Shown here piece by piece: positions 4,210 to 16,236 of a DNA stretch of 38,806 bases. Origin of the DNA: Acidobacteria bacterium 13_1_20CM_2_55_15 (GTDB lineage: Bacteria > Acidobacteriota > Terriglobia > 20CM-2-55-15); NCBI GenBank assembly GCA_001920875.1, contig MNKP01000044.1:1-38806 (forward strand), read 5' to 3'. The position numbers and the translations under genes were made by a program. A model generated the notes under the pieces. It made no database searches and had not been told where the DNA came from. It was given only the letters and a program-made list of their open reading frames with translations. Each line of letters starts with the position of its first letter. Positions within the stretch are counted from its first letter, which is position 1.

Positions 4210-4236
4210 ATTCCCCTCCTCTGCGAGGAGGGGAAT
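4210..4236. repeat. palindromic repeat, 12-bp perfect stem
   Basis: Two perfect 12-bp arms (4210-4221 and 4225-4236) separated by three bases. The arm sequence is the same as the terminal arm of the larger element at 9893-10011. It lies between smpB and the Fic-like gene, and would be read as the first residues of the latter if translation began at 4259. Confidence 0.8.
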
Positions 4237-7020: not shown

Positions 7021-9318
7021 ATGAACGCGCACTATAGATTTGAAACCAACAAGACATTATTGGCCCTTATCGCTGTTTTAGCAATCAACGTTGCAGGCTG
7101 CGCATCCAGGCAGGCGTACACGCGAGGCAACCGCGCGGAAATTACCAGGGATTTCGACACGGCAATGATCGAGTACAAGGCCGCTTTGGATCGGGATCCG
7201 CGGAACTACGAGATCCGCCTAAAGTACGAGCAGGCACGTTTCAACTCGGCCTTCCAGCACTTCGAAGCAGGACGGCGCGCTTTCGATAAACAGGATTACC
7301 AAACGGCAAAAATGGAATTCACGCGTGTGCTCGAGATCGACCCGACCCATACGCTCGCGGAACAGCAATTGGCCAAAGTGAACGAAGTCCTGACGAGCCG
7401 CAGCCGCAAAGAGCCGGAACCCGAGGTTCAGTTCGAGCAGCTCAAGGAAGAGACGCGCACAAATCCCACGCCGCAATCGCAGCTGGAGCCGAAAACCCGG
7501 GGCCCCATCGACGTTCACATGACGCAAGACAGCAAGATCGCGTTCGAAACCTTAGCTGAGTTGGCGGGTTTCAACGTGATTTTTGATCCGGACTTTCGTG
7601 GCGCCAGGATTCAGATTGATCTAAACAAAGTCGATATCTTCGAAGCTCTCGACATTTTGGCTCTGCAGACGCGCTCGTTCTGGAAGCCGGTCAACAGGAC
7701 AACGATTCTTGTTTCTCCCGACAACCAAACGAAGCGCCGCGATTACGACGAGCTCGTGTTGAAAACGATCTACATGACGAACAGCGTCACATCGACAGAA
7801 CTCACCGAGGCCATCACTACACTTCGCACGCTGCTCAATATGCGGTATCTGATGTCCAGCACTTCCATGAACGCCATTATCGTCCGCGATACGGCAGACC
7901 GCGTAGCGATCGCGGAAAAGATTATCGAAGATCTGGATAAAGCCAAACCGGAGGTGCTCGTCGAGGCGACCATAATGGAAGTCGACCGCAGCACGCTGCG
8001 TCAACTCGGAATCTTGCCCCCGCAGGGCACTGCCGTCACCACAACCGGGGGGACCGGGGGAACAGGTACATCAACTGGAACTTCTTTTCCCTTGAATAGG
8101 CTGCCGCGAAGCAGCGCGTCCTTCTCTCTTACGATTCCGCCAACAACCGCGCAATTCCTGGCAACTAGCACCAATACGCGGCTGCTGCAAAATCCGCGTA
8201 TACGGGCGACCGACGGGAAGCTTGCTTCAATCCGCATCGGTTCACAGGTCCCGATCGCTTCGGGGAGTTTTCAACCGGCATTTGTGGGAGCAACGGGAAC
8301 GCCGGTTGTCAACTTCCAATTTGTCGATGTTGGGGTAAACTTAGATATAACGCCTCGCGTTCTCCTCAATCACGAAGTTTCAATGACCGTCATGGTTCAA
8401 GTTCGTGCTGTCGCCGGAGACAGAAACGTTGGCGGCGTCACACAACCGGTGCTCACGAATCGTCAGGTACAACATGAAATTCGCCTGGCCGAGGGTGAAA
8501 CGAACATTTTGGGTGGAATCATTACAGATACGGAAGCGACATCTCTCAACGGTCTTCCCGGTCTCAAGAATATTCCGATATTGCGATACTTTTTCTCACA
8601 AGAACAAAAATCCCGAGATTCGACCGAAATCATCATTATGCTGACACCGCATATTCTCCGCATGCCGAATATATCGGCGGGCAACTTGCGCGGTCTCTAC
8701 ACCGGCTCCGAAACCATCCCGCGGCTTCGGGCAAGTCCGGAGGTGCCGGCCATCGGCGCGCCGTCTCCAACGCCCGGGACTCCTGCGCCAGGTGCGCCCC
8801 CGGCTCCCCAACCGCCCGCCGGGCAACCCCCTGCTCCAACGCCTCCGCCCGCCGGAGCGCCGGCAGCGCCGCCTAATGCGCAGCCGCAAGCCCAACGGCA
8901 GACCAATTCGACTGTCATGTTCGCGCCGTCACCGCTCACGTTGCCGGCAACGGGAACGGAAACCTTAATTATCATTGGCAACGGAATGGACTTCTTTGGT
9001 GTCGATCTGACGCTTTCGTTTGAGCCCGGAGCAGTCAACATCCGGGAGATTCGAGATGGGGGTTTCCTCAGCCGCGACGGACAGATTGTGGCTTTCGTTC
9101 AAAGAATGGAAACCGAGAGCGGCACCGTTCGAATTTCAGTTGAGAGGCCCCCGGGAGCTGCGGCAGTGTCGGGAACCGGTAATCTCGTAACGCTGGTGCT
9201 CGCGCGCGGCATGCGAGCCGGTGATTCGACGATCCGCATCACCGATTTTCGCATCCGCGATCCACAACAAAACGTCGCAATCGGACAACCGGCGGAGGTG
9301 CGCGTCTTAGCTCCATGA
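7021..9318 (+). CDS. type II secretion-type secretin (GspD family) with TPR start and cohesin-like C-terminus
   Basis: 765-residue outer-membrane channel of a type II secretion or type IV pilus-like system. A lipoprotein signal (LIAVLAINVAGC, Cys27) is followed by TPR-like repeats (about 35-120) and a secretin N-domain (GPIDVHMTQDSKIAFETLAE). A second N-type domain follows (YMTNSVTSTELTEAITTLRT), then the secretin core (about 310-545) with LLQNPRIRATDGKLASIRIG and GETNILGGIITDTEATSLNG. After a Pro/Ala-rich linker (about 580-620) comes a cohesin-like beta domain to the end (STVMFAPSPLTLPATGTE, then GMDFFGVDLTLSFEPGAVNI). It overlaps the first pseudopilin gene by 4 nt. Only 14 bp separate it from the divergent sugar-transferase start, so promoters must overlap coding DNA. 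Confidence 0.92.
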   Translation: MNAHYRFETNKTLLALIAVLAINVAGCASRQAYTRGNRAEITRDFDTAMIEYKAALDRDPRNYEIRLKYEQARFNSAFQHFEAGRRAFDKQDYQTAKMEFTRVLEIDPTHTLAEQQLAKVNEVLTSRSRKEPEPEVQFEQLKEETRTNPTPQSQLEPKTRGPIDVHMTQDSKIAFETLAELAGFNVIFDPDFRGARIQIDLNKVDIFEALDILALQTRSFWKPVNRTTILVSPDNQTKRRDYDELVLKTIYMTNSVTSTELTEAITTLRTLLNMRYLMSSTSMNAIIVRDTADRVAIAEKIIEDLDKAKPEVLVEATIMEVDRSTLRQLGILPPQGTAVTTTGGTGGTGTSTGTSFPLNRLPRSSASFSLTIPPTTAQFLATSTNTRLLQNPRIRATDGKLASIRIGSQVPIASGSFQPAFVGATGTPVVNFQFVDVGVNLDITPRVLLNHEVSMTVMVQVRAVAGDRNVGGVTQPVLTNRQVQHEIRLAEGETNILGGIITDTEATSLNGLPGLKNIPILRYFFSQEQKSRDSTEIIIMLTPHILRMPNISAGNLRGLYTGSETIPRLRASPEVPAIGAPSPTPGTPAPGAPPAPQPPAGQPPAPTPPPAGAPAAPPNAQPQAQRQTNSTVMFAPSPLTLPATGTETLIIIGNGMDFFGVDLTLSFEPGAVNIREIRDGGFLSRDGQIVAFVQRMETESGTVRISVERPPGAAAVSGTGNLVTLVLARGMRAGDSTIRITDFRIRDPQQNVAIGQPAEVRVLAP

Positions 9319-9881
9319 AGAGCACGACTGTAGCGGCGGTCCGCGAAGCGCTAGCGCGGCAGCGCGCAGCCTCAAGAAACGACCGCCGACAATCTCCTGA
9401 TCGCTGCACAGCCGGCGCTCATAGAGAGCCGCTACAGCTCGGCTTCACACTGATCGAGTTGATCGCAACGGTCTTCATTATTTCGATCCTGCTCGGTGTG
9501 GCCGTTCCGTTGGCCCGGAACTCGATCCAGCGTCAAAAAGAAGTCGCGCTACATGAGGCCCTGCGGGAGCTACGCACAGCGATCGACAAATATAAGGAGG
9601 CGTCGGAACGGGGCATGATTCCGATGAAACTCGACACCGAGGGGTACCCGGAATCGTTGCGGGTGTTGGTCGAAGGCGTGGATATGAACGGTACCGTCGG
9701 CAAGAAACTGAAACTTCTGAGACGCATACCGACCGATCCGATGACCAACACGACCGAATGGGGGCTGCGTTCGTACCAGGATGATCCCAAGAACAATTCT
9801 TGGGGTGGTCAAAATGTCTTCGATGTGTATACGAAGTCGCAGGGGACTGCGTTAGATGGAACGAAGTATAAAGATTGGTAA
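9315..9881 (+). CDS. GspG-like major pseudopilin with repeat-derived long leader
   Basis: 188 residues. The prepilin signature GFTLIELIATVFIISILLGV has the cleavage Gly, the conserved Glu at +5 and a hydrophobic helix. The mature domain ends in a GspG-like GGQNVFDVYTKSQGTALDGT..KDW with a SYQDDPKNNSWGG calcium-loop-like segment. Such proteins polymerise into the periplasmic pseudopilus of a type II secretion system. The leader before the cleavage Gly is about 43 residues instead of the usual 6-15. Nearly all of it is encoded by a palindromic element (9328-9437) read in frame. No start codon lies between the element and the cleavage site, so the long leader seems real. It overlaps the secretin stop by 4 nt. 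Confidence 0.88.
   Translation: MKSTTVAAVREALARQRAASRNDRRQSPDRCTAGAHREPLQLGFTLIELIATVFIISILLGVAVPLARNSIQRQKEVALHEALRELRTAIDKYKEASERGMIPMKLDTEGYPESLRVLVEGVDMNGTVGKKLKLLRRIPTDPMTNTTEWGLRSYQDDPKNNSWGGQNVFDVYTKSQGTALDGTKYKDW
9328..9437. repeat. palindromic element in the leader of pseudopilin 1
   Basis: A 10-bp perfect terminal inverted repeat (9328-9337 and 9428-9437, CTGTAGCGGC type) encloses GC-rich, partly self-complementary sequence. The element differs in sequence from the CCCCTCC-type palindromes nearby. It is read in frame as the leader peptide of the pseudopilin and ends just before the FTLIE cleavage region. Confidence 0.7.
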
Positions 9882-9882
9882 C

Positions 9883-10392
9883 GTGTTCAGACATTCCCCT
9901 CCTCGCAGAGAAGGGGAGGCGCGACAGCTTAATAGAAGCTGGCGCGCCGGGGTGGTCAGACCGGCGCCACGTCCCGCGGCGCATCCACCCCTCCTCTGCG
10001 AGGAGGGGAATAGTTACGGTTTTACTCTTCTCGAGTTGATGATCGTCATCGCCATCCTAGGGATCTTGGCTTCTATTGCGATCCCCATGTACAGGGCCGT
10101 GGTGCTCAATGCCAGAGAAACCGTTTTGAAGGACAATCTGCGGGAAATGCGGCGCGTAATCGACCAGTACACAGCTGATAAAAAGAAGGCTCCGGTCAGC
10201 CTGCAGGATCTCGTCGACGCCGGTTACTTTCGTGAAATGCCGGTGGATCCCATGACCCATTCTAATTCCAGCTGGCAACCGGTTAACGATACGTCGGTGA
10301 CGTCACCGGATCAGACCGAGAGCGGCATCGTGAACGTCCACAGCGGGTCAGCTGCGATCTCGTCGGAAGGCACGCCGTACAACACCTGGTGA
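9883..10392 (+). CDS. second GspG-like pseudopilin with repeat-derived long leader
   Basis: 169 residues from GTG 9883, one base after the previous stop; the frame also has an ATG at 9856 inside the upstream gene. The prepilin signature GFTLLELMIVIAILGILASI has cleavage Gly, Glu+5 and the hydrophobic helix. The mature part shares the GspG plan (LREMRRVIDQYTADKKKAP, MPVDPMTHSNSSWQPV, and a final SSEGTPYNTW), so it is a paralogue of the preceding pseudopilin. The leader is about 45 residues and is almost entirely the palindromic element at 9893-10011. It is convergent with era, with the stops only a base or two apart. Function within the pseudopilus is inferred from the family. Confidence 0.85.
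   Translation: MFRHSPPRREGEARQLNRSWRAGVVRPAPRPAAHPPLLCEEGNSYGFTLLELMIVIAILGILASIAIPMYRAVVLNARETVLKDNLREMRRVIDQYTADKKKAPVSLQDLVDAGYFREMPVDPMTHSNSSWQPVNDTSVTSPDQTESGIVNVHSGSAAISSEGTPYNTW
9893..10011. repeat. palindromic element in the leader of pseudopilin 2
   Basis: 119-bp element with perfect 17-bp terminal inverted repeats (9893-9909 and 9995-10011). Its arms contain the same CCCCTCCTC...GAGGAGGGG core as the palindrome at 4210-4236. The whole element is open in the frame of the pseudopilin and encodes most of its leader. Confidence 0.85.
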
Positions 10393-16094: not shown

Positions 16095-16236
16095 CATTCC
16101 CCTCTCCTTCTGGGAGAGGGCGGCGCAAAGCGCCGGGTGAGGGTCGCGCGAAGCGCGAGCCCGATAGGGCGAAGCCTCAAAAGAAGTCTATTCGAATCTT
16201 GAGACCCTCACCCTGCCCTCTCCCAGAGGGAGAGGG
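16095..16236. repeat. REP-like inverted-repeat element between lptE and recX
   Basis: About 140 bp. Outer arms of the CCCCTCTCC...GGGAGAGGGG type (near 16097 and ending near 16236) enclose inner inverted segments of the CCGGGTGAGGGTC type (16131-16147 against 16203-16214). The right half is nearly identical to the element at 5532-5646. It lies between divergent starts, so it may affect the promoters of both lptE-holA and recX-alaS. Confidence 0.82.

Follow-up and report, generated by a model that had tools for sequence, protein, structure and literature searches.

Two adjacent genes for GspG-like pseudopilins contain palindromic DNA immediately upstream of their predicted prepilin peptidase sites, which raises the question of how such DNA came to lie within a signal leader and what becomes of the peptide that it encodes. 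The genes are located in a window of 38,806 nucleotides (contig MNKP01000044.1 of Acidobacteria bacterium 13_1_20CM_2_55_15, denoted here as genome G000) and follow a gene for a GspD/PilQ-type secretin (7021..9318, +; Pfam Secretin, 1.9e-39; TIGR02517, 1.2e-45, which is under the cut-off of that model). Pseudopilin 1 (188 aa; 9315..9881, +) matched N_methyl over its cut-off (match 41-63) and pseudopilin 2 (178 aa; 9856..10392, +) matched it at 2.1e-08 (match 52-76). The best model for both was TIGR01710 (GspG), at 31.8 and 41.5 bits versus a cut-off of 88.85, and matches of both to GspG and prepilin models were mostly below the equivalog cut-off. The N_methyl matches place the predicted Gly(-1) codons at 9441..9443 (+; cleavage predicted after it, G|FTLIE) and 10018..10020 (+; cleavage predicted after it, G|FTLLE), such that the leader comprises 41 residues ahead of Leu-Gly|Phe in pseudopilin 1 and 54 residues ahead of Gly in pseudopilin 2. 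Prepilin leaders are hydrophilic, cytoplasmic, and variable in length, and are cut off by prepilin peptidase after Gly(-1), the key residue for cleavage (PMC10191384, PMC6497953). A gene for this peptidase (Peptidase_A24) was found in G000. The order secretin-pilin-pilin is conserved around the locus, and a query with pseudopilin 1 yielded matches in all 100 of the relatives searched. G000 represents a soil member of the Acidobacteriota; the nearest relative with a name that was identified is a MAG of Candidatus Sulfopaludibacter, which belongs to the family Solibacteraceae in the order Bryobacterales.

An earlier note on this DNA had described two palindromic elements with unrelated terminal repeats, each open in the pseudopilin frame and ending just before G|FTL, and our analysis bears out that description. 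Element 1 (9328-9437, +; 110 nt), a GTAG-tagged palindromic repeat within the leader of pseudopilin 1, encodes TVAAVREALARQRAASRNDRRQSPDRCTAGAHREPLQ, is bounded by perfect 10-nt terminal inverted repeats (CTGTAGCGGC/GCCGCTACAG), and ends 3 nt before the Gly codon; its fold has a z of -2.2 relative to shuffled sequences. Element 2 (9893-10011, +; 119 nt), an ATTCCCC...GGGGAAT palindromic repeat within the leader of pseudopilin 2, encodes HSPPRREGEARQLNRSWRAGVVRPAPRPAAHPPLLCEEGN, has arms of 27 nt that are 93% complementary, and ends 6 nt before the Gly codon; its hairpin folds at -82.5 kcal/mol (z -8.8 versus shuffles). An Rfam search returned no match at the curated threshold, and mir-1913 was rejected as a candidate given that its match was far under the cut-off.

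Both elements belong to families dispersed in G000. BLAST identified 53 matches to element 1 and 112 to element 2, in each case at about 40 loci. Many matches to element 1 begin exactly at its first base and end near base 61 or at base 110. Nearly all of 41 oriented rows of element 2 with both arms, which include two sites in pseudopilin 2 genes and both orientations of many loci, start with ATTCCCC and end with GGGGAAT, and inspection of their flanks by eye revealed no consistent duplication, where MITEs would be expected to show target-site duplication and TA ends. By chance, the pilin frame is open in roughly half of the copies of element 2; openness alone is therefore weak evidence, and we rejected it as a sign of strong selection for an open frame. 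Although the families have unrelated terminal repeats, some longer copies of element 2 (L204, L205, L206, and others) hold an internal unit resembling element 1, such that the families are partly nested. Two further fragments were detected in the window: an element-2 end within a minus-strand ORF (4212-4236) and a piece of element 1 (16142-16180).

The earlier note had proposed that relatives be compared for short leaders free of elements, and such leaders were identified. Pseudopilin 2 leaders of 10-11 residues, all element-free, are present in G001 (MERSTKIGKR|GFTLL), G005 (MEPNTKIGKSR|GFTLL), and likewise G004, G006, and G008, versus 54 residues in G000. Leaders of pseudopilin 1 comprise 7 residues in G005 and G006, 10 in G002, 13 in G003, and 18 in G001, versus 41 in G000; that of G004, at up to 37 residues, is built of a different, 45-nt repeat. 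In the nearest relative (G003; 90% identity), element 1 is absent, but a 149-nt copy of element 2 occupies the same nucleotide of the pseudopilin 2 gene as in G000, with the same flanking bases (CGTGYTCAGAC). The two copies differ by net indels of 3 and 33 nt that keep the frame, and the mature pilin genes of the two genomes have diverged to dS values of approximately 0.65 and 1.0. Both copies score closer to other members of the family than to each other. A single common insertion followed by turnover is the likely, but not proven, history of element 2 in these two genomes. In the other relatives examined, these hairpins were found at neither pilin site.

These observations lead us to conclude, with a probability of roughly 80%, that two non-autonomous palindromic families dispersed in this Bryobacterales genome were inserted in frame into the class III leaders of adjacent GspG-like pseudopilins, and that the resulting peptide is translated and discarded. 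Membership in repeat families, the open in-frame position, short leaders without elements in relatives, and the presence of element 2 at the same site of a second species with the frame kept are directly observed; we infer from the sequences that the element-coded leader is translated, cleaved, and neutral. Translation would begin at the ancestral starts, namely the ATG overlapping the secretin stop for pseudopilin 1 and the ATG inside the end of pseudopilin 1 for pseudopilin 2, and the ribosome would read through the element. The hydrophobic segment would then target the pseudopilin to Sec, and prepilin peptidase would cut after Gly(-1) and discard the whole element-coded peptide, leaving the mature subunit unchanged. 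The leader would thus behave as translated intergenic DNA. Because the leader is removed after Gly(-1), in-frame sequence added upstream of that residue is expected to be tolerated and discarded. The claim of the earlier note that the peptide would be cut off gains support from the short leaders of relatives, the lack of an in-frame start between element and cleavage site, and the prepilin peptidase gene.

This reading depends on where translation starts. The start of pseudopilin 1 appears to be fixed, since its ATG overlaps the secretin stop (CATGA) and this ATGA overlap is kept in seven genomes (G000-G006); it is the sole in-frame start of the gene. The ATG of pseudopilin 2 falls within the 3′ end of the pseudopilin 1 gene, which is conserved, and a corresponding ATG is present in relatives. 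The earlier note had named an internal start after the elements as evidence against its proposal; no ATG, GTG, or TTG occurs between either element and its Gly codon, which makes it quite unlikely that translation begins inside or after the elements and that they belong, in whole or in part, to the 5′ untranslated sequence. Pseudopilin 2 does, however, have one in-frame GTG within element 2, located 22 codons ahead of Gly, such that part of element 2 might be untranslated; for this reason, as Di Nocera et al. caution, REPs assigned to N-termini may in many cases be extragenic (PMC3733652). Regulation of the operon by RNA hairpins, which would protect or attenuate the mRNA between the secretin and the two pseudopilins and thereby set subunit ratios, with translation of the leader being incidental, is also unlikely. 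REPs are thought to act in this way elsewhere (PMC3733652), the stable hairpin of element 2 follows just after the stop of pseudopilin 1, and G003 and G000 share an identical right arm of this hairpin (35 nt), against only 80-86% identity in adjacent coding DNA. Yet these arms are likewise unchanged among many unrelated copies of both genomes, and homogeneity of the family therefore explains this identity; moreover, other relatives examined do not have these hairpins at these sites. Finally, the draft of G000 is broken into 211 contigs (82% complete) and both elements are repetitive, so the arrangement could have come from collapsed repeats or a chimeric contig in a metagenome bin; such an artefact is highly improbable given that the flanking genes keep their conserved order and that element 2 recurs at the identical nucleotide in another species, next to the same conserved flank.

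Whether prepilin leaders are a special location for these elements was evaluated with 131 prepilin-type genes from 11 genomes. The nearest in-frame start lies a median of 6 codons before Gly (90th percentile, 15), and the three element-bearing genes, at 42, 33, and 22 codons, have the most distant such starts, with one other gene tied at 22. Element 1 or 2 was matched over most of its length in only these 3 of 131 leaders, a count that leaves out a weak match of 33 nt located upstream of a single gene in G001, and they represent only two independent insertions. That leaders are a preferred target of the elements, rather than merely tolerant of them, is very unlikely, even though two of the five prepilin-type genes read in G000 contain elements where uniform insertion predicts about 0.004 (~81 element loci, 3.44 Mb, and ~180 nt of leader; a post hoc calculation), and even though a third repeat family adjoins prepilin starts in G003 and G004. 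The two events among 131 genes argue against preference, as do the mostly extragenic location of the copies, the at least eight other genes that carry elements, and the spacing of elements, which is not clustered (one gap < 1 kb observed versus 1.8 expected). Given the density of elements, chance alone would be expected to produce a pair with this spacing, and clustering was accordingly rejected as the cause of the adjacent pair. The suggestion in the earlier note of a safe landing place thus holds in the sense of a permissive site, while we found no evidence of a special or preferred target. We consider it doubtful that cleaved prepilin leaders are a recurrent refuge for mobile palindromes, in which elements with open frames persist because prepilin peptidase erases their product; were this true, tiny repeats would have in such leaders a proteolytic equivalent of an intein or intron.

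The location of other copies is consistent with in-frame insertion that is not confined to leaders. Coding context in the draft genome was read in the stretches around element copies and was assigned with a codon model and domain matches (Pfam/NCBIfam), with empty sites compared for some but not every copy. In these stretches, most copies are outside genes, and the at least eight other genes carry them at internal or N-terminal positions. In several unrelated conserved genes, the element is in frame and the frame is open throughout. In homoserine kinase (ThrB), a copy of element 2 (L222 1501-1628) forms an in-frame insert, and residues 54-99, which span it, have no counterpart in 5wat, while the flanks align to residues 3-45 and 49-274 of that structure. 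Elements at L181 1501-1560 and 2467-2658 involve PriA, both sides of which still align to solved PriA, and a type-4 uracil-DNA glycosylase (UDG), in which the element is N-terminal to its domain. In-frame elements were also identified in AddA-like and AddB-like proteins (L173 1501-1553 and 4241-4362), an amidohydrolase (L176 223-277), a glycosyltransferase (L199 1501-1537), and, following a probable signal peptide, a serine hydrolase (L201 1501-1554). The peptide of element 1 (EAxARQRAA...GAHRxPLQ) recurs in pseudopilin 1, UDG, and AddB. According to published work, replication and repair genes often harbor intragenic REPs (PMC3733652). The copies in PriA, UDG, AddA, AddB, and others agree with that statement and with the way RPEs have been described (PMC2229807). 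Since the same families are in frame inside several enzymes, where they would occupy loops, linkers, and N-termini, the leader is one permissive site among several. As a separate observation, the right end of element 2 is AGGAGGGGAAT. A G at the following position turns it into AGGAGGGGAATG, which combines a Shine-Dalgarno-like motif and a start codon; at L214, the start of a gene for a hydrolase-like protein with a signal peptide may come from this end.

The kind of element described here is already known from Rickettsia palindromic elements (RPEs) and intragenic REPs; what is new is the two families and their position in a cleaved leader. RPEs and Wolbachia palindromes are ~100-150 bp, have terminal inverted repeats, occur between genes and in frame in unrelated conserved genes, and are regarded as mostly neutral to function (PMC2229807). 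The elements described here resemble them in dispersal, terminal inverted repeats, and in-frame insertion into genes, a likeness in kind, and the comparison with RPEs drawn in the earlier note was thus apt. Unlike RPEs, however, these elements are from Acidobacteriota and are GC-rich, and two copies are in a leader that would be removed, such that the mature protein would be untouched. Judged from its sequence, element 1 is REP-like: it starts with CTGTAG followed by a GC-rich hairpin and is present in high copy number, as are GTAG REP/REPIN, and REPs inside ORFs, especially in DNA-repair genes, have been reported previously (PMC3733652). Its units of 61 or 110 nt are nevertheless longer than the 20-40 bp typical of GTAG REP/REPIN, and no associated RAYT was found. 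TIRYT, families with terminal inverted repeats and tyrosine transposases, are known in Acidobacteria and feature long inverted repeats and moderate copy number (PMC3733652). The present elements share the phylum and both properties, but, inspected by eye, the arms of element 2 show no GGGGWSAS motif, nor was an associated transposase identified. In Yersinia, YPO1552 is a YAPL/RU-2 fusion whose signal peptide is partly made by a MITE (PMC2229807); there, as in the pseudopilins, part of an N-terminal signal derives from a mobile repeat. The Yersinia repeat, however, helps to form the signal itself, whereas elements 1 and 2 lengthen a class III leader that already existed, upstream of the recognized site. 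In the collection of papers searched, nothing relevant was found on palindromes in prepilin leaders or in Solibacter.

Candidates for a mobilizing enzyme were rejected. No Y1_Tnp/RAYT gene was found in G000 (82% complete), and neither element flanks any of eight Y1_Tnp loci retrieved from relatives. A DUF559 nuclease is present as one copy with a stop and is not flanked by the elements.

Collectively, the range of protein-coding palindromes, which are best known from Rickettsia and Wolbachia, appears to include environmental Acidobacteriota, in which housekeeping and repair enzymes carry insertions of two families. In the leaders, the inserted peptide would be removed by proteolysis in the host, which makes them a clean setting for testing tolerance while the mature protein is left unaffected.

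Two additional features of these genomes were observed. A 45-nt tandem repeat encoding MSGANASPxGRSHQx, every unit of which starts with ATG, adjoins prepilin start codons in G003 (L134 1321-1500) and G004 (L278 1501-1590) and the start of another, different gene in G008 (L281); it may extend the N-termini of adjoining genes or lie in their leader. G000 comprises 3.4 Mb (82% completeness) versus 5.7-7.1 Mb in its genus mates and contains only 5-6 prepilin-type genes versus 11-17.
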